From Candidatus Hydrogenedens sp. (GTDB lineage: Bacteria; Hydrogenedentota; Hydrogenedentia; Hydrogenedentales; Hydrogenedentaceae), in the NCBI GenBank assembly GCA_020216745.1, contig JAIWNQ010000275.1:1-19100 (forward strand): a DNA stretch of 19,100 nt, written 5' to 3'. The notes below the pieces were generated by a model. It ran no database searches. It was not told the DNA's origin and saw only the letters and a program-made list of their open reading frames with translations. Positions 3,547-14,763 of the stretch are shown here, one piece after another (positions within the stretch are counted from its first letter, which is position 1; each line of letters starts with the position of its first letter). The translations under genes were made by a program, and so were the position numbers.

Positions 3547-5337
3547 ATGAAAATGTTGCTATTCTCAACAATCCTATTTATCAGCATCTGTTTTTATATA
3601 TCTCACTCTGCAACAGCAGAGGCTATCCCACGTCCCGAACACCCACGTCCAGATATGATGCGTGAGCAGTGGGTTAACCTGAATGGTATCTGGGAATTTG
3701 CAGAAACGGACGACAATAACGCCTCATTTTTAGAGGCAAATGCTGTATTTCCAGACCGCATTCAGGTTCCATTTTGCCGAGAAAGTGAATTATCTGGGCT
3801 TAATCGCAAACAGTTTGTTCGCAATGTATGGTATCGTCGAACCATATCCGTCCCTTTTGAAAATTGGAAAGAACATCGTGTCTTATTTCATATTGGTGCC
3901 TGTGATTGGCATACACGAATCTGGTGGAATGGGAATTTATGTGGAGAGCACTTTGGCGGTAGTGCCCCTATTACCTGCGATGTAACGCCATTTATAAAAG
4001 AAGGGGAGAACGTTATCATTGTTCATGCCTTTGATGATGTTCGCACTGGTCTTCAAGCGGGTGGCAAACAATCACCCAAGCCAGAAAGTTTTGGGTGTGT
4101 CTATACTCGGACAACAGGTATCTGGCAAACAGTATGGTTAGAATTAGTTGGCACGTCCTATATCGAACGATTCAAAGTATACCCAGATATGGATAAGGGT
4201 CAAATAACCCTTCATGCTCTCTGTCGGGGCGATTTGCCAGAAGGCTTGTCATTAACAGCGGAAGCGTTTTTCAATGGTGCAAATGTGGGCAATGCAACAG
4301 TAAAATTAAATGGCGATACAGCCCAATTAGTATTACCTCTCCAAGTGGTTAACGTATGGGAGCCAGGCAAACCTGAACTATACGACCTAAAACTAACCTT
4401 AAAAAAAGGTAATGTGGTAGTTGACAGATTAAACTCCTACTTTGGGTTGCGGAAATTGACATTAGAAGGACGTAAATTTCTTATTAATGGCAAACCTGTC
4501 TTTCATCGTACCGTCCTCGACCAGGGCTTTTACCCCGATGGGATTTGGACTGCACCGACAGACGAAGAACTTCGTGCCGACATAGAACGTTCTATGCAAG
4601 CAGGCTTTAATGGGGCACGTCTTCATCAGAAAGTATTTGAACCACGTTTCTTATACTGGGCAGATAAATTAGGGTATATTGTTTGGGGTGAGTTTCCAGA
4701 CTGGCAATTCGACCATAAGAATACTGCAGGACAGTTACATTATATTAACGAGTGGCGTGAAATAGTCGAACGCGATTTTAACCATCCCGCAATTATTGGC
4801 TGGTGCCCGTTTAATGAGACACCCAAAGAAGCAATGCCTTTACAGGGAGTTATTCTTGAATTAACCCGTGCCATTGACTCAACCCGACCTGTGCTGGAAG
4901 CCAGTGGATGGACTCACGGCTACCCTAAGCCAATGCTTATCGATGCCCATGATTATGAGCAAGACCCCGTAAAATTCAAAGCCAAATGGGATACAATTGC
5001 GGATAATCCTAAAAAGCCCGATTGCTCCTATGCAGAAACACGTCCTGTCCCATTTTTCATTAGTGAATATGGTGGAATTGGCTGGAATGTGGAACAAGGT
5101 GGTTGGGGATATGGCAACAATCCGAAGACATTAGAGGAATTTTACCAGAGATTGGAAGGGCTCACAAAGGCAATTCTGGATAACCCCTACATTTTCGGCT
5201 TCTGCTATACGCAGTTATATAACATTGAGCAAGAACAAAATGGAATTTATACATACGACCGTAAACCGAAATTTGACCTTGACCGTATTCGTGCCATTTT
5301 TTCTGCAGAATCTGCCTACGAAAAATCTAATAAGTAA
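3547..5337 (+). CDS. Exported glycoside hydrolase family 2 (beta-galactosidase/beta-glucuronidase-like)
   Basis: The 596-residue product begins with a signal peptide (hydrophobic core about residues 4-20, likely cleaved near SATAEA at 21-26), so it should act outside the cytoplasm. The mature protein follows the three-domain GH2 plan: a jelly-roll sugar-binding domain (about 30-190), an Ig-like sandwich (about 195-300) and a TIM barrel (about 305-590). The acid/base glutamate is E424 in GWCPFNE, and the nucleophile is E507 in FFISEYGG. Both are where family 2 retaining hydrolases have them. The length suits the short beta-glucuronidase/beta-galactosidase type rather than the LacZ of about 1,000 residues; the exact sugar cannot be deduced. 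AGAAAGGA precedes the ATG. The gene is probably a single transcription unit with its own promoter and converges on the dehydrogenase gene. Confidence 0.92.
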   Translation: MKMLLFSTILFISICFYISHSATAEAIPRPEHPRPDMMREQWVNLNGIWEFAETDDNNASFLEANAVFPDRIQVPFCRESELSGLNRKQFVRNVWYRRTISVPFENWKEHRVLFHIGACDWHTRIWWNGNLCGEHFGGSAPITCDVTPFIKEGENVIIVHAFDDVRTGLQAGGKQSPKPESFGCVYTRTTGIWQTVWLELVGTSYIERFKVYPDMDKGQITLHALCRGDLPEGLSLTAEAFFNGANVGNATVKLNGDTAQLVLPLQVVNVWEPGKPELYDLKLTLKKGNVVVDRLNSYFGLRKLTLEGRKFLINGKPVFHRTVLDQGFYPDGIWTAPTDEELRADIERSMQAGFNGARLHQKVFEPRFLYWADKLGYIVWGEFPDWQFDHKNTAGQLHYINEWREIVERDFNHPAIIGWCPFNETPKEAMPLQGVILELTRAIDSTRPVLEASGWTHGYPKPMLIDAHDYEQDPVKFKAKWDTIADNPKKPDCSYAETRPVPFFISEYGGIGWNVEQGGWGYGNNPKTLEEFYQRLEGLTKAILDNPYIFGFCYTQLYNIEQEQNGIYTYDRKPKFDLDRIRAIFSAESAYEKSNK

Positions 5338-6502: not shown

Positions 6503-8980
6503 TTATCGAATGACATTCAATATAATTTCAGCACGTTCCGCAATATTAACAATGTGGTCGCTAATACGTTCTAAATGCCCTAAAACATCCAAGAACACAA
6601 CCCCAGCCTTTACAGAACATTCACCTGTATCCAAACGATGAACATGGTTCTCGGTGAAATGGTGAACAAGTTCTTGAATTTTCCCACCTGTAAAAATAGA
6701 TTTCTGTGCAGAGTCAATGTCATGCTTTTCAAATGTTTGAAATAGAAATTCCATCTGTTCATTTAATGTGTGCTGAAGTTCACGAATTTCATTCAAAGCA
6801 GATGATGTTAAAGTTAGTTCATTCTGTTTCAAGATGTGGTAAAGTTCAATAAAGGCTTCCGCATGGTCACCCAATCGTTCCGCATCGTTAACGGCATGGA
6901 TTAAAGCAGGGATTAATTTCGATTGAGACGGTTCTAATTCTTTTCGGGATAGTTCTACAAGATATTCCGTTATATCATGTTGGAGACGGTCAATTAATAT
7001 TTCGCGTTCCTGAATACGTTGGATTAACGGTTCTTTCCCTGTGCAGAACAGTTCGCATGCATCATTGATGGAGTTTTGTCCTTTGCGAATCATATATGTG
7101 ACTTCTTTTACCGCTTGTTCAAGAGCAAATAGTGGTGAATTTAAAAGTTTCGGTTCGAGATATTCAAGCACTGTTTCTCGATCCTCTCGAGTGGTTGGGA
7201 TAATCAACATGCAAAGTTTTGCATGTAAATTGACAAATGGCAGGAATAGGAGTGCATTGATAATGTTGAACAAACTATGTGCATTCGCAGCATGTCGTAC
7301 AATATTTTCTGGATGTTGAGAAAACACATTTCCTGGAGTTAACCAATCTACAAATCCTAAAAATAACGGCTGATGGTTCCAGAGTGGGACAAAGAATAAG
7401 CCAAACATAATTAATGTCCCGATTACATTAAAGAAGGTATGAGCCAACGCTGCACGCTTTGCATTACGGTTCGCACTCAATGCTGCAAGGTTCGCCGTGA
7501 TAGTCGTTCCAATGTTATCCCCGAGAATAAGCGGAACCGCTGTATAAAAATTAATGAGCCCCTGAGCACAAAGTGCTTGCACAAGACCTACCGTAGCACT
7601 ACTGGACTGAATAACACAGGTTGCTATGGTTCCAATGAGAATACACATAAGCGTTGGCACTAATGGCATGACCCCTTGGGCATCAGGGGAACAATCGAAC
7701 TTATGAAACCACTGTATAAACTCGGTACTGTAACGTAACGGTTTTAGCACATCGGACATGATGGTCAAGCCAAGAAATAATAAACCAAACCCGAGAATGG
7801 CTTGTCCGAAGGCTTTTACCTTTGCATTTTTAGGAATCCACATCATGATGAATCCGATTGCAATTGCAGGTAAGGATAATGTCTCTAACCGAAAAGCAAT
7901 CAATTGTGCCGTGACAGTCGTACCGATGTTTGCACCATAAATTACACCGATAGCCTGCTTCAATGAAAGCATCCCAGCATTGACAAAACCGACAGTCATT
8001 ACTGTAGTTGCAGAAGAGGATTGAACAAGAGCAGTGGTAATAGTCCCTGCTAACAATGCAGTCACACGATTTTGCGTCATAAATTGAAGGATGGCTTTCA
8101 ATTTGCGGTCTGCAGCTAATTGAATGCCTGACGACATCAAGGTCATCCCATAAATGAATACCGCAAGTCCACCCAGTAACGTTACTAATAGCCCCCATTT
8201 ATTCATCCCCATCACTTTGAACTCCAAAGACCTTGCATCAAATCGGTCTCTGGGGGTTATATCGGGTCGTGTATCACGAATTTCAATGGAGGCATAATTT
8301 ATTCCCGTCTCGTTCCCTAATTTCCAGGAGGTAACTGCCTTACCTTCGTCGTCAGTAAGTATATGCGTATTTTTAACCGAGGCACCTTTGGAAGAACCCT
8401 CAACACGGAAAAAGACTTCCACTCCTTTTGCAGGTGAACCATCACTATTGACCAATCGAACACCAAAAGAATCAATGGTACCTCCTGCTACCGATTCCTT
8501 TGAAGATAAAATTTTTTCTACACCACCGATAGCACGTAATCGGGCAGGTTTAACATTCGGGAAATCTGGTAACGATGCCTCTACCCAAATGTCTCCACAC
8601 CAATTCCCTAATTTTAATAATGCAGAGGCGGAACCCCCTGCATCCGTTATAACCTCTGCTTTAGGTTGGTTCGTTTTGGTAAATACAGCACCGGTATCCT
8701 CGTTAAGAACTCTGAATAAGACTCGAACACCACCAATGCCCTTTCTGCCTCCTTCACCACCAAGTAGACCTTTCTGAATTGCACTCTCTACCGTAACACG
8801 AAACGGCTGAGGCAACGTCTCACCATGCATACATACCTGATTATCACCACTTGCATATTCATCTGGCACAACCCTTTCAGGTGATAGACTCCCCGAATCA
8901 CAACCTGTAAATACAAAAATAAGAAGTGTAAAAAGGAGAATAGCCATAGAAAATACACGAAGAGAGAAAATATGAAACAT
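6503..8980 (-). CDS. Na+/phosphate cotransporter with C-terminal PhoU domain and N-terminal Ig-like lipoprotein region
   Basis: The membrane core carries the two inverted Na/Pi-cotransporter repeats, each with QSSSAT (residues 320-325 and 458-463) followed by GANIGTT or GDNIGTT, as in the NptA/YjbB family. The last 215 residues are helical and PhoU-like, with RLGDHAE and a second late match ERISDHI. The first 255 residues are unusual: a hydrophobic signal ending in VFTGC (C27, a lipobox), then two Ig-like domains of the invasin/Big type (about 55-155 and 160-255). I place the start at 8980 because AGAGGA lies five bases upstream and the product then begins as a normal lipoprotein signal. The open frame extends to an ATG at 9073, preceded by GGGGAG at a 12-base spacing, giving 856 residues. 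Expected role: sodium-driven phosphate transport at the inner membrane, with an external N-terminal module of unknown use. Confidence 0.9.
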   Translation of the reverse strand: MFHIFSLRVFSMAILLFTLLIFVFTGCDSGSLSPERVVPDEYASGDNQVCMHGETLPQPFRVTVESAIQKGLLGGEGGRKGIGGVRVLFRVLNEDTGAVFTKTNQPKAEVITDAGGSASALLKLGNWCGDIWVEASLPDFPNVKPARLRAIGGVEKILSSKESVAGGTIDSFGVRLVNSDGSPAKGVEVFFRVEGSSKGASVKNTHILTDDEGKAVTSWKLGNETGINYASIEIRDTRPDITPRDRFDARSLEFKVMGMNKWGLLVTLLGGLAVFIYGMTLMSSGIQLAADRKLKAILQFMTQNRVTALLAGTITTALVQSSSATTVMTVGFVNAGMLSLKQAIGVIYGANIGTTVTAQLIAFRLETLSLPAIAIGFIMMWIPKNAKVKAFGQAILGFGLLFLGLTIMSDVLKPLRYSTEFIQWFHKFDCSPDAQGVMPLVPTLMCILIGTIATCVIQSSSATVGLVQALCAQGLINFYTAVPLILGDNIGTTITANLAALSANRNAKRAALAHTFFNVIGTLIMFGLFFVPLWNHQPLFLGFVDWLTPGNVFSQHPENIVRHAANAHSLFNIINALLFLPFVNLHAKLCMLIIPTTREDRETVLEYLEPKLLNSPLFALEQAVKEVTYMIRKGQNSINDACELFCTGKEPLIQRIQEREILIDRLQHDITEYLVELSRKELEPSQSKLIPALIHAVNDAERLGDHAEAFIELYHILKQNELTLTSSALNEIRELQHTLNEQMEFLFQTFEKHDIDSAQKSIFTGGKIQELVHHFTENHVHRLDTGECSVKAGVVFLDVLGHLERISDHIVNIAERAEIILNVIR

Positions 8981-9097
8981 GGATTTCCTCTGCATAAAAA
9001 TCCGTTTTAATGGCAAACCCCAGACCTCTTTATTCGAAGCCCAAAAACAATTTTGGTATTTGTCTAAAATCATAAATTTTTTTTACTCCCCACGTTT

Positions 9098-9282: not shown

Positions 9283-10563
9283 ATGGGCATATATCCAGAA
9301 AAAGCATTAACATGGTTATATCGTTTATTATCCCTGAAAGGCTCAAATAGCCCTTCTAATACAAAGGCAAAACCTGCAAATGCAATTCGCCACTCCCTGA
9401 TATTTGATACCCCTAATCCTTTGTCATATAACTTCGTCCCGCTACCAGACCATATCCCCTTTTTTATGCTCGAAGTTTACAGATACTTGCGTGATTCCAT
9501 TCCCGACCTGTCCGATGCAGTCTGGACATGGAAACGACTTTGTAATAATGGCTTCGACCTACAGTGGGGAAACGAAGTAACGGAGGCGAAACTTGTTCAG
9601 GCAAAACGGATAATTGAACAGTTAAACCAGCGAATAAATAGTGGTGATGGTGGTCTTACAAATTTGCTGGATATTATATATACCTCACTATTTACCTATG
9701 GGGCATCCGCCCTTGAAATTGTTTTTTCACCTTCCAGCAATTACATTCAGGATATAGTCCCGATTGATGTCTGGACTATCCGCTTCCGTTGGGAAGACCA
9801 TTCATGGCAGGCATACCAGATTTATGGGAATGAAACAATCCATTTGCCATCAGAACGATTCGTATATATAGCCTTAGACCGTGATGGAACAAACCCTTAC
9901 GGTCGTTCCTTATTTCGTGCTTTGCCCTTTGTAATCAAGGTTCAACAGAGACTTATGGAGGATATGGCACGTGCAATGCATAACGCAGGCTGGGCACGAC
10001 TCCATGTGCAGTATAAACCCGAAGCAAAACTACCAGAAGAAAGTGAAGAGGAATATCAGAACCGAATGGAGGCAAACTTGGCTGAGATTCGGGAACAAAT
10101 GAGCAATTTAGGCGTTGACCAAAATGTCGTTACCTATGATAATGTAGGAATTTCTGTGGTTCAAGGGGCACAACGCTATCCTGCCTATTACGATACACAG
10201 CGAGCCATTGAAGAACAAATCATCACAGGCACACACATGATGCCCATCTTGTTAGGTCGGAATTATGGAACGACAGAGACCTATGGGACGGTGCAATATG
10301 AGATTATCAATCGTCAGGTAGAGACAATCAATCGCTCCATCGCTCGAATATTAGAACGGATTTATCGTTTAGAGTTGGCACTTGCAGGTGTTCAGGTAAA
10401 GTTGACGGTTCAGCCACGTTCCAATTGCACTTCAGATGCCCAAAAACAATCACTGGTCGAAACAAGACGGGTGAATGAGTTATTGCAATTGTTGCAGGCT
10501 GGAATCATTAGTATTGAAGAAGTCCGTAATCAACTTCGTCACATGAACATTTTATCTTCATAA
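9283..10563 (+). CDS. Phage portal protein
   Basis: The 426-residue product has the character of a tailed-phage portal, the dodecameric ring at one capsid vertex through which DNA passes. The supporting segments are the early YLRDSIPDLSDAVWTWKRLC region, the central stretch NPYGRSLFRALPFVIKVQQR (the helix around which portal cores assemble), the acidic E-rich wing segment (about residues 245-275), and the late GTHMMPILLGRNYGTTETYG followed by a long helix with repeated R-I and E-R. Residual similarity to Mu gp29-like (DUF935) and HK97-like portals is possible; I cannot separate them by eye. AAGGAAAAGGAA lies upstream of the ATG. It is the first gene of an eight-gene head/lysis run. A large terminase gene would normally lie just upstream, but the sequence there is a spacer and a host transporter. 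Confidence 0.88.
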   Translation: MGIYPEKALTWLYRLLSLKGSNSPSNTKAKPANAIRHSLIFDTPNPLSYNFVPLPDHIPFFMLEVYRYLRDSIPDLSDAVWTWKRLCNNGFDLQWGNEVTEAKLVQAKRIIEQLNQRINSGDGGLTNLLDIIYTSLFTYGASALEIVFSPSSNYIQDIVPIDVWTIRFRWEDHSWQAYQIYGNETIHLPSERFVYIALDRDGTNPYGRSLFRALPFVIKVQQRLMEDMARAMHNAGWARLHVQYKPEAKLPEESEEEYQNRMEANLAEIREQMSNLGVDQNVVTYDNVGISVVQGAQRYPAYYDTQRAIEEQIITGTHMMPILLGRNYGTTETYGTVQYEIINRQVETINRSIARILERIYRLELALAGVQVKLTVQPRSNCTSDAQKQSLVETRRVNELLQLLQAGIISIEEVRNQLRHMNILSS

Positions 10564-10593
10564 ACAACAGAACATCATAAAGGAGGTTTAACA

Positions 10594-11313
10594 ATGAGTA
10601 TTTTGGACACACTTTGTTTCGCAGAACGCTGGGGTGAAGTTATATCACCCGCACGTACTCAATTATCAGCAGAAACGGAGACAGATGAAAATAAAGAAGT
10701 CAATCGCTACACCTTGCGGGAACTAAAACCAGAGGAATATGTCGTTTTTACCCTTGATTTATGCCACAATCAAATTGACCGTCATTTCAGTTGCTTTCCA
10801 GAAGAGGAATTGAACACCATCAATCGTCTTGTGCCAGGTAGACCTTTAATGGAGCGTCATGATTTAAGAGGCTCTTTACCTCGGGGCACCTTCTTCCGTT
10901 CAACATTATCTCGCAATGGAGATTATGTTTCAGTTCGTCCTAAAGTATATGTGCTATTGTTAGACGAAAATCGGCACTTTATTGCAAATATCGAGGGTGG
11001 TATCTATCGGGAGACATCAATTGGCTTTTCATTTACCTTCCCTGAATGTTCTATCTGCGGTAAGGATATCCGTCAATGTATTCATGTGCCTGGCACAAAA
11101 TATGATGGCAATTTGTGTTTCTATCACATTCGCGGGGTTCAGGATGTATTAGAAGGCTCGGTTGTTGCCTGTGGTTCTCAAGGAACATCCTTCATAACAG
11201 AAGCACGCTCCCAATTTGCAGAGCGGATGGCTGAAAAATCACAGAACATATTGGGTCTAAATTACTTTAATGAATATAAAAATAGAAACCATAAATATTG
11301 GAGTTATGAATAA
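10594..11313 (+). CDS. Phage prohead (capsid maturation) protease-like protein
   Basis: The 239-residue protein matches the pattern of herpesvirus/HK97-type prohead serine proteases. A conserved histidine occurs in LMERHDLRGSLPRGTF (H89), the candidate nucleophile serine is in YRETSIGF (S142), and the third conserved segment is LEGSVVACGSQGTSF (187-200). Between the last two is an unusual cysteine/histidine cluster, C152-S-I-C155 then C162-I-H164, which looks like a small metal site. Such enzymes trim scaffold and capsid N-termini during head assembly, and the gene sits in the expected place between portal and capsid genes. AAAGGAGG precedes the ATG, 30 bp after the portal stop. Catalytic assignments are by motif position only. 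Confidence 0.78.
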   Translation: MSILDTLCFAERWGEVISPARTQLSAETETDENKEVNRYTLRELKPEEYVVFTLDLCHNQIDRHFSCFPEEELNTINRLVPGRPLMERHDLRGSLPRGTFFRSTLSRNGDYVSVRPKVYVLLLDENRHFIANIEGGIYRETSIGFSFTFPECSICGKDIRQCIHVPGTKYDGNLCFYHIRGVQDVLEGSVVACGSQGTSFITEARSQFAERMAEKSQNILGLNYFNEYKNRNHKYWSYE

Positions 11314-11350
11314 ATCATTGGGTCATCAAAACAGAAAAGGAGGTCTCAAA

Positions 11351-11557
11351 ATGCCACCAAAAATATCATTAACCAATAAGAAAAAATCACCACAAGGATT
11401 TGAACTTATGAACCGCCTTTGTGAGGATATTTCCGAACTACGAGAACGAGTTTCACGTCTTGAACAGTCCCTTCTACGCGGATTGTGGCTACTTGTGGCT
11501 AATTTGTTAGGAGTAATCTTCTCCCTTGTTCAGCAAAACATGTTTAACAATTACTAA
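11351..11557 (+). CDS. Small coiled-coil and membrane protein (XhlA-like)
   Basis: I start this gene at the ATG at 11351, which is preceded by AAAAGGAGG, rather than at the upstream in-frame ATG at 11270 that overlaps the protease gene by 44 bases and has no ribosome binding site. The resulting 68-residue protein has a charged N-terminus, a short amphipathic helix with heptad-like spacing (DISELRERVSRLEQSL, about 26-41) and one hydrophobic span (about 43-61). That is the layout of XhlA/hemolysin-type phage accessory proteins that act with holins, but no diagnostic motif proves it. It sits between the protease and the phosphoesterase-like gene, with 15 bp to the next gene. Confidence 0.72.
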   Translation: MPPKISLTNKKKSPQGFELMNRLCEDISELRERVSRLEQSLLRGLWLLVANLLGVIFSLVQQNMFNNY

Positions 11558-11572
11558 CGAAAGGAGGTGAAA

Positions 11573-12313
11573 ATGCTAAGTCGGTTCCGAAAATATGAAG
11601 AATCCATCCCTATTGACTGTGCCTTACACTCCGAAGGGCGGTTTGTAGTACAGCGACATAAGGATAAGCAGGGACATCATCTCGATGTCCGCCTTGAACA
11701 AGACCACTATCTATTAGGTTGGAGAATAGAAGCACATGAACTCCTACCAAAACTATGGGGTCAAGAAAAACTCCCCCACGACCCTATTTGGTTAGAGACG
11801 GATAAGGAGACAGAGTGTCTGCTTGCAGGACGGTATCGTTGGTTCAAGCAAAGCGATACATGTGGTTATCTGGAATTAACTTCAGAAACAGGTCAGCAAA
11901 TGGTGTATCAGGTCGAACGTTGGGCAGGCTTCCCTGCACGATTTCAGCAGGCTCTATGGCAACGGATGCAGACATGGCAAATTGCACCAGCGGATGTGCC
12001 ATCCTTGATAGAAGATGGTATTCACGCTCGGAAGTATGCCATCCGTAAACTTTGTGGATTAGGACAATTTTTAGATGGCGACGCATTCTGCTCGGAACAC
12101 TGGGAGAAGGCTCTGGCTCGATGCTCTTTGGAAGAGATCTATTCATATCTGCAAAAATGGGAGGCTCGTTTTTCCAGATATGCACCGTCGGAACGGATAT
12201 CTCGACCAGAGAAGATAGATGAGTCTTGGGTAAAATCGGGAGATAACAAGTTATCTCAGGAAATACTAAACCTTGTGTTGACACAACAACAAAAAGAAAC
12301 AACTAACATATAA
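11573..12313 (+). CDS. Protein resembling the LigD 3'-phosphoesterase domain
   Basis: Residues 23-50 read RFVVQRH..., then H-L-D-V-R-L-E, then L-L-G-W-R-I. This parallels the 3'-phosphoesterase domain of bacterial DNA ligase D (FVxQxH...LHxDxRLE...SW). H29, H36, D38 and R40 align with the metal- and phosphate-binding H, H, D and R of that domain, with one extra residue between the histidines. The later conserved histidine and tyrosine of LigD are not obvious here, where the region reads LETDKETECL, so activity is uncertain. The second half (about 100-246) is unrecognised. The family removes 3'-ribonucleotides or phosphates to leave clean 3'-OH ends. I use the ATG at 11573, five bases after AGGAGG; the GTG at 11567 overlaps the Shine-Dalgarno. 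The location inside a capsid gene run suggests a role with packaged DNA, which is inference. Confidence 0.65.
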   Translation: MLSRFRKYEESIPIDCALHSEGRFVVQRHKDKQGHHLDVRLEQDHYLLGWRIEAHELLPKLWGQEKLPHDPIWLETDKETECLLAGRYRWFKQSDTCGYLELTSETGQQMVYQVERWAGFPARFQQALWQRMQTWQIAPADVPSLIEDGIHARKYAIRKLCGLGQFLDGDAFCSEHWEKALARCSLEEIYSYLQKWEARFSRYAPSERISRPEKIDESWVKSGDNKLSQEILNLVLTQQQKETTNI

Positions 12314-12331
12314 CAAAAAGGAGGTTCTAAT

Positions 12332-12712
12332 ATGGTCTTCGGTGATATTGGTGGAACATACACAGAATTAATCATTACCTGCTCCACACCATCAACAGGA
12401 ACAGTAAGCATCCATCGTGGAGATGCCTTGAAACTTACAGGTGATTATGAGGTGAGTAATGCCTTCGCAGGAGAGGATGTTATCTTCGGGCAAGCCATGA
12501 GTGATTGCGATACAAATGAAAGTGCCATTCCTGTAAAGGTTCGAGGCGTGTGTATCTTTGATTATCAGGGGACACCGCCTACGGTAGATGGATTAAAAGG
12601 CATCGTGGGGGCATCTGTGCCAGGCAAAGTTAAAGCACCCGCTACGGGTAATGGTTTTGGCAGAGTTATTAAAGTAGAACCAGCCACGAGTCGTGTTCAT
12701 GTCTTACTCTAA
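12332..12712 (+). CDS. Probable capsid decoration (cement) protein
   Basis: This 126-residue, beta-rich, glycine-rich protein has no signal peptide or membrane span. Its pattern (an early AL-K-L-T-G-D-Y-E segment, a central G-E-D-V-I-F-G-Q-A, then VRGVCIFDY and a C-terminal G-x-G-F-G-R-V segment) resembles DUF2190-type head decoration proteins. It also occupies the standard place for them, directly before the major capsid gene. Such proteins bind the outside of the mature capsid and stabilise it. AAAAGGAGG precedes the ATG, with 18 bp from the previous gene. The call rests more on position and size than on decisive motifs. Confidence 0.62.
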   Translation: MVFGDIGGTYTELIITCSTPSTGTVSIHRGDALKLTGDYEVSNAFAGEDVIFGQAMSDCDTNESAIPVKVRGVCIFDYQGTPPTVDGLKGIVGASVPGKVKAPATGNGFGRVIKVEPATSRVHVLL

Positions 12713-12733
12713 CAAGAAAAGGAGGATATTTGT

Positions 12734-13783
12734 ATGATAAAAGAAAACACCAAACTAATGGAACAGATGCAGTTTTTATCCCAACCGAAAGAAAAACTGA
12801 TTTCAACGAAAGGTAAAGAACTATACGAGACCTTAAACACGTTGGGCTTGTCTTATTCTCAATATTTCCGTGCGTTGGGAACGAATATTGAGGAGTATTG
12901 TGCAAGAGAATTTGGAATAGACCTGCATCAAATTACGGTTGAACGTTTCTTCCAGACGGACCCAAATACGAAATGGTTATTTCCAGATTTGGTTCGTGAG
13001 TCAGTAGTTGCTGGAATGCAAAGCAAACCTATTTATCCACAATTAATCATCCGTGATGAGCATATTGGCAGTGCAGTTTATGATGTGCCGTATGTGGAAG
13101 AATCAGAGGAAGAGGAAGAACTTCGTCTGGTTAGTGAAGGTTCCGCTATTCCAGAATCGGAAATTACGTATGGAGACCGTGTGATTCGGCTGGAGAAATT
13201 AGGACGGGGTGTCATTGCTTCGTATGAAGTTATTCGCAGAATGTCGGTAGATATGTTGCGGGTTCATTTGCGAAGAATGGGAGAGTGTTTAGGTCGGAAT
13301 TTAGATAAACGGCTTGCTCTAATATTGGTCTATGGGGATGCTTCTGGCAGTGGAACCGCCCCAGAAATACTTAACTCAAGCACAGCTGGAACATGGAGTT
13401 ATACAGACCTTGTCCGTGCATTTTTACACCTGACCACTAAAAATTTCTTTACTCCTACACATCTGGTCGCCGATGCAAATACGATGGAGGCATTACTGTC
13501 GTTGCCAGAACTAACCGATTCAGGTCTGTTTGATTTTGCACGGAGTGGAAATTTGCCAACACCATTAGGTGTAAAACTTGTGCCAATGGCTGACCACCCA
13601 GTAAACTGCTTTACATTGCTCGATTCACGTTATGCTGTGCAGAAGTTGACCGAGCAGGACTTATTAGTCGAAAGTGACCGATTAATTAACCAGCAATGGG
13701 ATCGCAGTTATCTAACTGTAGTAACTGATTTTGCGGTTATCTACCAAAAAGCACGAGTTGTTGTTCGGAACGATTGGAGTTAG
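12734..13783 (+). CDS. Major capsid protein, HK97-fold type
   Basis: The 349-residue protein sits in the canonical place after protease and decoration genes. It has a charged N-terminal region (about 1-60), a possible protease-trimmed segment, then an acidic E-loop-like stretch (VEESEEEEELR). This is followed by the long helix region with VIASYEVIRRMSVDML and NLDKRLALILVYGDASGSG, and a C-terminal half alternating strands and helices: FFTPTHLVADANTMEALL, a loop with PLGVKLVPM, and ending in VVTDFAVIYQKARVVVRNDW. This arrangement is typical of HK97-fold capsids. AAAAGGAGGATATTTGT precedes the ATG. An encapsulin is a conceivable alternative fold relative, but the portal and protease next door argue for a viral-type shell. 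A strong stem-loop follows the stop. Confidence 0.82.
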   Translation: MIKENTKLMEQMQFLSQPKEKLISTKGKELYETLNTLGLSYSQYFRALGTNIEEYCAREFGIDLHQITVERFFQTDPNTKWLFPDLVRESVVAGMQSKPIYPQLIIRDEHIGSAVYDVPYVEESEEEEELRLVSEGSAIPESEITYGDRVIRLEKLGRGVIASYEVIRRMSVDMLRVHLRRMGECLGRNLDKRLALILVYGDASGSGTAPEILNSSTAGTWSYTDLVRAFLHLTTKNFFTPTHLVADANTMEALLSLPELTDSGLFDFARSGNLPTPLGVKLVPMADHPVNCFTLLDSRYAVQKLTEQDLLVESDRLINQQWDRSYLTVVTDFAVIYQKARVVVRNDWS

Positions 13784-13808
13784 CTCTTTTCCATTGACCA
13801 GATTACAT

Positions 13809-13849
13809 ATCTATGAGGGGTGTGCTTATACCTGCCACCCCTCATAGAT
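13809..13849 (+). other. Perfect 14-bp stem-loop after the capsid gene
   Basis: ATCTATGAGGGGTG (13809-13822) and CACCCCTCATAGAT (13836-13849) are exact reverse complements around a 13-base loop. Neither strand has a T-run after the stem, so it is not a standard intrinsic terminator. Placed 25 bp after the major capsid stop, it could stabilise the capsid mRNA 3' end, serve as a processing site, or partly end transcription so that capsid is made in excess over the lysis genes. It could also be a DNA-level recognition site. Confidence 0.75.
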
Positions 13850-13882
13850 GGCAAGAAAAACAAGATAAAAGGAAGGAAATTT

Positions 13883-14347
13883 ATGTCTGGACGGAATAAT
13901 CTTCAACTTGCTATCAAAATAGGTGATACATATCAAATAACACACTTCAATCTAAAAGAATTTGAAAATCCAAATGGGTGGGCTATGGTACATGAGTCGG
14001 TAATAATATCACTTACCAAAGTCCGTAAAGCTTTGATGGAAAAAATAGGCGAAGAGGTTGAGATTATTATTACTGGCTCAACACGAACACCACAGGATCT
14101 AAAAAGATTGGCTGAACGGCTTGGCTGGCTGGAGGAGGGAGGCTCTGTTGCAAGAAATTCAAGGCATCTCGACCGCTTTGGAGGGATTGCAGTAGACTTT
14201 TACGCACGGCAGAAACGGGATAAAAAACGAATCGCGACAAATATTGTCAAAGAAGTCTCACAACAATATTTTGATTTTGTAAAGGCTGATTATCCAGATG
14301 GGCATATCCACGCAGATAATCGGAATCAAAGTAATACAACATTATGA
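13883..14347 (+). CDS. M15-family peptidase, endolysin-like
   Basis: Starting at the ATG at 13883, which follows AGGAAGG, gives 154 residues. The open frame begins earlier at 13820, but that would run through the stem-loop without a ribosome binding site. The zinc-peptidase signature of the M15 D-Ala-D-Ala carboxypeptidase/L-Ala-D-Glu endopeptidase family is present: S93-R-H95 and AVD105 (the SxH...GxAxD motif) and the late H141-I-H143-A-D motif, with D139 in front as a possible catalytic acid. The GSTRTPQDL segment (65-73) is where the family has its substrate-side loop. In phages such proteins cut peptidoglycan stem peptides for release. The downstream holin-like gene supports a lysis role. 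There is no signal peptide, so export would need the holin. Confidence 0.75.
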   Translation: MSGRNNLQLAIKIGDTYQITHFNLKEFENPNGWAMVHESVIISLTKVRKALMEKIGEEVEIIITGSTRTPQDLKRLAERLGWLEEGGSVARNSRHLDRFGGIAVDFYARQKRDKKRIATNIVKEVSQQYFDFVKADYPDGHIHADNRNQSNTTL

Positions 14348-14376
14348 ACCACTAAATTAAAAAGGAGGAATAAAAT

Positions 14377-14763
14377 ATGATTACAACAACAATTCCTGTT
14401 TTAGACCAGTTCTTATTTTATTTACTAATGATGGTCTTTGGTAGCCTTTGGACAATAATGCGTGCTTATGAGTTATACCAACAACTCCGCAACTCAAAAT
14501 ATCGATTGGTGCTCAGTATTATTGAAAGTGCTGTCCAAAAAACATACGACACCTATACTCGTGAAATCAAAAAAAGTCGTGAAGATGGAAAATTAACACC
14601 TGAAGAACGACAAAAAGCGTTTCAACTTGCTATGGAAACCGCCATTGATTTGGCTAAAAACCAGAATTTAGACATCTTCAACATTGTACGGCGAGAATTT
14701 ATGCCTTATCTCATTCAACGCTCGTTGCAAAAACTAAAACTACAAAAGGCACAAAACAAATGA
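14377..14763 (+). CDS. Holin-like small membrane protein
   Basis: The 128-residue protein has one N-terminal hydrophobic span (about residues 10-28), then a long charged, helical tail with alternating basic and acidic residues. One N-terminal helix plus an amphipathic tail resembles LL-H-type phage holins, and the gene directly follows the endolysin-like gene with an AAAAAGGAGG ribosome binding site. No decisive motif supports the family, so a structural membrane protein remains possible. It is the last gene of the run; repeat array 4 begins six bases after its stop codon. Confidence 0.58.
   Translation: MITTTIPVLDQFLFYLLMMVFGSLWTIMRAYELYQQLRNSKYRLVLSIIESAVQKTYDTYTREIKKSREDGKLTPEERQKAFQLAMETAIDLAKNQNLDIFNIVRREFMPYLIQRSLQKLKLQKAQNK

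Follow-up and report, generated by a model that had tools for sequence, protein, structure and literature searches.

What do phage-type head and lysis genes do in a bacterial chromosome when the rest of a phage is not beside them, and are they kept or decaying? The question is raised by a cassette of eight genes at positions 9283 to 14763 of a 19,100-nt stretch of DNA (the window) from a metagenome-assembled genome (MAG) of the phylum Hydrogenedentota. Nothing in the window could be recognised as a terminase, tail tube, integrase or replication gene. An earlier note on this DNA had proposed selection rather than decay and three possible products, i.e. a gene transfer agent (GTA)-like module with other parts elsewhere, a tailless particle or a domesticated nanocompartment. 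Our data reveal phage-type structural genes in the host chromosome that are under purifying selection rather than decaying, and it is likely that a dispersed, vertically inherited GTA-like element has its capsid-and-release locus in the window and its motor at a second locus. Two loci, one for shell and release and one for the motor, are each inherited throughout the phylum and kept together, as in the layout known from Brachyspira, which makes a GTA-like element the most likely explanation. The probable ancestor of the element is a single tailed phage that was domesticated early in Hydrogenedentota.

A conserved cassette of eight genes

All eight frames are intact and on the plus strand, as the earlier note had stated. 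With start sites refined for the membrane protein (11351), the peptidase (13883) and, probably, the LigD-like protein (11573), the cassette reads as follows (aa, amino acids):

9283..10563, plus strand: portal protein, 426 aa (PF06074, 4.9e-10; phrog_3753, 2.5e-48)
10594..11313, plus strand: prohead-protease-like protein, 239 aa (phrog_16951, a function-unknown family, 2.4e-34; position; motif)
11351..11557, plus strand: small membrane protein, possibly an XhlA-like lysis partner, 68 aa (phrog_1193, 0.0048, weak)
11573..12313, plus strand: LigD 3'-phosphoesterase domain plus helical C-terminal domain (family profile, fold)
12332..12712, plus strand: decoration protein, 126 aa (phrog_4588, virion structural protein, 1.9e-9)
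12734..13783, plus strand: HK97-fold major capsid protein, 349 aa (PF25209, 4.6e-11; phrog_3922, 5.5e-46; HK97 capsid 2gp1 in a profile search, 0.0014)
13883..14347, plus strand: M15-type peptidase/endolysin, 154 aa (phrog_894, endolysin, 6.9e-7)
14377..14763, plus strand: holin-like protein, 128 aa (phrog_13712, holin, 0.005, weak)

We searched 68 genomes of the phylum, all drafts, of which 38 were good (completeness of 90 % or more, contamination of 5 % or less); the window's own genome is 86 % complete. The capsid gene was present in 52/68 genomes and 34/38 good ones (a few matches being fragments), which rules out presence in a single strain. Gene order was read in 42 relative loci, many of whose contigs end within the cassette. 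The common order was portal (detected in 35 of the 42), protease (37), membrane protein (31), LigD-like protein (38), decoration protein (41), capsid (42; 343–350 aa), genes d1 to d4 (29, 29, 25 and 25), peptidase (19) and holin-like protein (28). Since this order is identical across the phylum, the cassette is not a product of chance. Frames in the relatives are intact with few exceptions: in L040 one portal alignment passes its stop, with an intact frame on the same contig, and in G025 one hub carries a TAG. A DNA search returned, among the matches listed, three relatives titled Hydrogenedentota or Hydrogenedentes.

The position next to rplJ is not conserved: none of the 42 relative loci contained a match to L10 or L12 of the window. 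Compared by position, the 43 neighbourhoods had no gene family beyond the cassette span in common in more than six cases. Gene order is thus constant but the flanking genes vary, i.e. the unit is fixed and its genomic place is not. Both boundaries lie outside the element:

6503..9073, minus strand: host gene (upstream boundary) that we take to be a Na/phosphate cotransporter, with a relative upstream of the cassette in the same-genus locus L036
14840..14988, plus strand: ribosomal protein L10 leader (RF00557, 46.9 bits; downstream host boundary)

Glycoside-hydrolase-like genes, similar by eye, lie on one side of the cassette in the window (3547-5337) and on the other in the same-genus genome G030 (L035:11600-13375), so the local neighbourhood has been rearranged.

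A divergent terminase at a second locus

The statement that nothing is present to cut and pump DNA holds for the window but not for the genome, whose large terminase is encoded on another contig (C151:15283-16689; E = 1.3e-233 with our terminase profile A7), within a second locus:

G000:C151:15259-17817 (L203:9260-11818), one strand: candidate small terminase, 3D-domain lipoprotein, large terminase

A7 was built from four such divergent terminases, one of them a divergent extra copy from G040, which scores 5e-4 with PF03237, stands at 42 % to the first row and sits on a very long branch of the terminase tree. The family came to light in G035 (L046:2760-4211, minus strand) when terminases were compared with the capsid loci; there it is separated by about 5 kb from the capsid gene and by 1 kb from the holin-like gene, a proximity that may reflect ancestral or secondary linkage. 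The profile found the family in 57/68 genomes and 37/38 good ones (56 without G058, which has a distant relative only; a few are fragments). Among the good genomes 34 hold both capsid and terminase, three the terminase only, one neither and none the capsid only; the corresponding counts for all 68 are 44, 12, 4 and 8. Of the 44 genomes that have both genes, 41 carry them on different contigs; G035, G047 and G057 have them on one contig, separated by about 5 kb, 13 kb and 50 kb, respectively. The terminase does not belong to one contiguous prophage, and its occurrence across the phylum at a separate locus fits the suggestion of a GTA-like module with other parts elsewhere.

Motor and nuclease motifs are well kept: GRDVGK, DLG[FY] and DHxID were present in 40/40 terminase loci and VDEA in 36/40. 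Upstream, 30/40 loci encode a protein of 131–274 aa (longest frame), which matches no family convincingly and is a candidate small terminase on account of its position only; in the window's genome it is encoded at L203:11303-11818, minus strand. The gene for the 3D-domain lipoprotein of the cell wall (PF06725, 4.8e-13) lies upstream in 22/40 loci.

The terminase of the window's genome has no Pfam terminase domain (best 0.078) and fits phrog_2, terminase large subunit, at 1.1e-23. An initial result of no shared motor, obtained with seven public terminase profiles, was a false negative that the phylum-wide divergent family overturned. Six of these profiles matched few of the 68 genomes (PF03237, 11; PF04466, 3; PF17289, 5; PF03354, 4; phrog_9, 9; PF05876, 6), while phrog_2 matched 55 at E up to 0.01, 16 of them with E below 1e-15 and most others weakly; of 11 weak places inspected by eye, nine looked PhoH-like and two like other ATPases. 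A tally of 22/34 good capsid carriers without a motor was accordingly wrong, as the public profiles missed the family in most genomes, and so was the assignment of phrog_2-positive members (e.g. in G006, G033 and G025) to prophages, as they belong to the shared family. Second copies of the terminase family occur at G046:C17, G047:C65, G002:C187, G043:C343, G053:C178, and G040:C66 and C119, and are candidate paralogues or related prophages.

Inheritance and selection

The element is co-inherited with the host lineage. On a four-gene cassette tree (42 rows) nine host families required eight label changes, i.e. the minimum, against 25.7 after shuffling; f11 is not one clade, with f5 nested inside. 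The terminase tree likewise needed the minimum of eight changes for nine families, yet f7, f8 and f11 each need two, and f11 is again not one clade. In 34 genomes, mean pairwise distances were 0.33 for the capsid and 0.35 for the terminase, and the two sets of distances correlate (r = 0.58; 0/2000 permutations as high). It is nevertheless the co-presence of capsid and terminase, rather than this correlation, that is the telling point.

The ratio of non-synonymous to synonymous substitution rates (dN/dS) was 0.03–0.41 for the cassette genes in the 8/10 pairs giving values, and 0.035–0.28 for the terminase (9/10 pairs). Three pairs included the window, for which only the decoration gene gave a value (0.065), the rest being saturated (ratio of the corresponding proportions, pN/pS, 0.14–0.59). 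Together with the phylum-wide presence and family-wise inheritance, these low ratios fit the proposed selection.

Tail parts

Many relatives carry an adaptor, a distal-tail protein (Dit; 29/42 loci) and a tail hub (25/42). The hub contains an inserted staphylococcal-nuclease-type (SNase) fold with largely conserved active-site columns. Of the 42 loci, 11 are without it and six undecided as the contig ends; on the tree this requires two changes if regain is allowed, and at least three under losses only. By genome, the hub was found in 37 of 68. No hub was found in the window's genus (0/4 genomes), nor in several f3 genera. A particle lacking a tail tip is compatible with the window's genus.

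Protease-like, LigD-like and lysis proteins

Of the identities first proposed, those of portal, decoration protein, capsid and LigD domain were corroborated. The product of 10594..11313 is called protease-like by position and motif, without a named family: as in the nearest phages, its gene follows that of the portal and precedes that of the capsid, H89 and S142 are invariant in 19/19 sequences, and no relative of solved structure was found. It also has an invariant C-x2-C ... C-x-H motif (C152, C155, C162, H164; window:10594-11313), a possible metal site of a type that we do not know from prohead proteases.

The LigD phosphoesterase domain was recognised by family profile and by fold, with catalytic-type columns present, and was unseen in a Pfam scan of the window protein alone. 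In genus g2 (L003:8447-9541, also L037 and L040) the phosphoesterase domain is absent, and the protease frame extends into the helical domain that elsewhere forms the C-terminus of the LigD-like protein. This fusion suggests that the helical domain is a scaffold or targeting domain.

In the peptidase, S93-x-H95, D105, H141 and H143 are invariant in 16/16 sequences, and a profile search of the PDB gave a weak match (2vo9, 0.12); we assign it to the M15 type with moderate confidence. The last protein may be a holin, as weakly suggested by phrog_13712, which matches 8/17 family members at E up to 0.05; no Pfam holin was found in it.

Relatives in databases and viruses

The capsid has 359 relatives among 5.8 billion proteins; the 120 listed are all 341–352 aa long, and their named organisms are Hydrogenedentota, ‘FCB group’ or ‘bacterium’. 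Likewise, among the 120 listed of 158 hub homologues the named organisms are Hydrogenedentota or unresolved. The terminase has 406 related proteins, of which the 120 listed carry no Pfam domain and are called hypothetical where a source names them; their named organisms are Hydrogenedentota except for one record labelled Nitrospiraceae bacterium (P0211), probably a mislabelled MAG. Two long contigs among the database relatives, of 6.6 and 5.1 Mb, bear a capsid and a terminase member.

A single-sequence scan of IMG/VR with the capsid found nothing, and a profile scan found 30 viral loci at 24–33 % identity. Pairwise tblastn showed a terminase next to the capsid in only 3/30 of these, so that this comparison is unfit as a control. 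Neither IMG/VR nor INPHARED yielded a close viral relative of the capsid, those found being at most 33 % identical; two peptide patterns retrieved no terminase relative from IMG/VR, and phage proteins annotated as terminase are 21–30 % identical to ours.

Possible function of the element and rival explanations

For a GTA-like element, the capsid, portal and decoration proteins would form a head that the protease matures. The terminase would pump pieces of the host chromosome through the portal, and the holin-like protein, small membrane protein, M15 peptidase and 3D lipoprotein would open the cell. In many lineages the adaptor, Dit ring and nuclease-domain hub may form a very short tail tip on the head; the window's genus and most of family f3 have no detectable hub. 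The LigD domain would probably heal the 3' ends of packaged or delivered DNA.

It is tempting to speculate, though we find it rather doubtful, that the window's genus and most of f3 make tail-tip-less heads with host DNA, released by lysis, with ends repaired by a head-borne 3'-phosphoesterase and the DNA passed on without injection, e.g. through the recipient's uptake machinery, the same head elsewhere bearing a nuclease-hub tail tip. Nucleases of the staphylococcal type leave 3'-phosphates, ends that are healed by LigD phosphoesterases. A strict pairing of hub nuclease and LigD domain is opposed by genus g1, which keeps the LigD domain and has no hub, and by g2, which keeps the hub and has no LigD domain.

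Several observations count against a GTA-like element. Particles and packaged DNA are inferred here from genes alone. The 0/4 hub count of the window's genus leaves DNA delivery unexplained there, and no tail tube, stopper or tape measure turned up, the one tape-measure profile, of the single family searched, matching in a scattered way in 11/68 genomes. The window's own dN/dS is mostly saturated, and correlated distances are expected for any two vertically inherited genes, whatever their function. Co-occurrence is imperfect, as seen in the three good genomes with a terminase and no capsid match, and in the eight capsid-only and 12 terminase-only genomes of the 68. Furthermore, several genomes hold second terminase copies, and one family member, in G002, is unmatched by phrog_2 and fits short terminase profiles only (best 2e-4). 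All genomes, moreover, are drafts.

Alternatively, an encapsulin-like, capsid-derived compartment could have kept portal and protease to store or export an enzyme such as the LigD-like protein, the terminase serving another purpose. The window's genus has no detectable tail tip and yet keeps its head genes under selection, the LigD-like gene occupies what we take to be the usual scaffold position, and the fusion of its C-terminal domain to the protease in g2 is what one might expect of a targeting or scaffold domain. The element resembles encapsulins in having an HK97 fold in a cellular genome under selection; to our knowledge, however, encapsulins have no portal, prohead protease or terminase, and a portal and a genomic terminase are present here. 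A portal would have no evident use in a closed protein shell, and the terminase occurs in all 34 good capsid genomes and keeps its motor and nuclease motifs in 40/40 loci. This co-conserved terminase disfavours the nanocompartment, which we regard as unlikely.

The inserted SNase fold of the hub and the presence of lysis genes would also suit a weapon, i.e. phage-derived particles that are released by lysis and harm or kill neighbours by means of the hub nuclease. Such a role is very unlikely, considering that capsid (52) and terminase (57) are found in more genomes than the hub (37), which was not found in the window's genus or several f3 genera.

That we see ordinary prophages, or what remains of a phage family specific to this lineage and repeatedly re-acquired, is highly improbable: the genes are of phage type and scattered unrelated prophage-type terminases do occur in these genomes, but two trees fit the host families with the minimum number of changes, frames are intact with few exceptions and dN/dS is low, the neighbourhoods share no gene beyond the cassette span in more than six of 43 cases, no contiguous block of integrase, replication and packaging genes as in an intact or recent prophage was found, and IMG/VR and INPHARED hold no close viral relative of capsid or terminase that we could find.

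If the GTA-like reading is true, a GTA has been inherited by most of an uncultured phylum, among the widest phage domestications known to us, and whether such elements persist because host DNA moves becomes testable within that phylum. That the tail tip was lost while head and motor were retained raises the question of which part of a transfer particle selection needs. Since the terminase has no Pfam domain in the 120 records listed and is called hypothetical where named, split systems in other phyla may be overlooked likewise. The literature searched (open-licence PubMed Central papers) held no report of a GTA-like element in Hydrogenedentota.

Comparison with known systems

The nearest phage heads are those of Enterococcus phage fHoEfm07, Brevibacillus phage Jenst and the fecal records MT835508, MT835952 and MT835769, which have portal and/or capsid relatives at 23–31 % identity and a similar portal-protease-decoration-capsid order. 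In contrast to the cassette, all five carry a terminase just before the portal, and Jenst and fHoEfm07 have annotated tape measures. The LigD-like protein shares fold and catalytic-type columns with the LigD 3'-phosphoesterase family and differs from it in having a helical tail, lying inside a capsid operon and lacking ligase and polymerase.

With RcGTA-like elements (Rhodogtaviriformidae) the element shares portal, protease, HK97 capsid, Dit, hub, vertical inheritance and dispersed parts. The main RcGTA cluster includes terminase, tail tube and tape measure, whereas the Hydrogenedentota terminase lies at a separate locus, and neither tube nor tape measure was found.

As of 2022, according to passages of PMC9662315, three GTA groups had an established genetic basis, two alphaproteobacterial and one from Brachyspira. 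In the latter (BhGTA/VSH-1, Brachygtaviriformidae), as those passages describe it, terL lies outside the structural/lysis cluster, is single copy and genus-conserved and has co-diversified with the host, its role not having been shown (PMC9662315). The Hydrogenedentota element is alike, by description rather than by sequence, in its structural and lysis cluster, its terL outside that cluster and its co-diversification with the host. In contrast to BhGTA, it is phylum-wide, has LigD and SNase domains, and adds a 3D lipoprotein at the second locus. Particles and gene transfer have been shown for BhGTA, whereas for the element described here both are predicted from its genes, and we file it under no named GTA family; its layout of shell and release at one locus and motor at another matches that described for the Brachyspira system.

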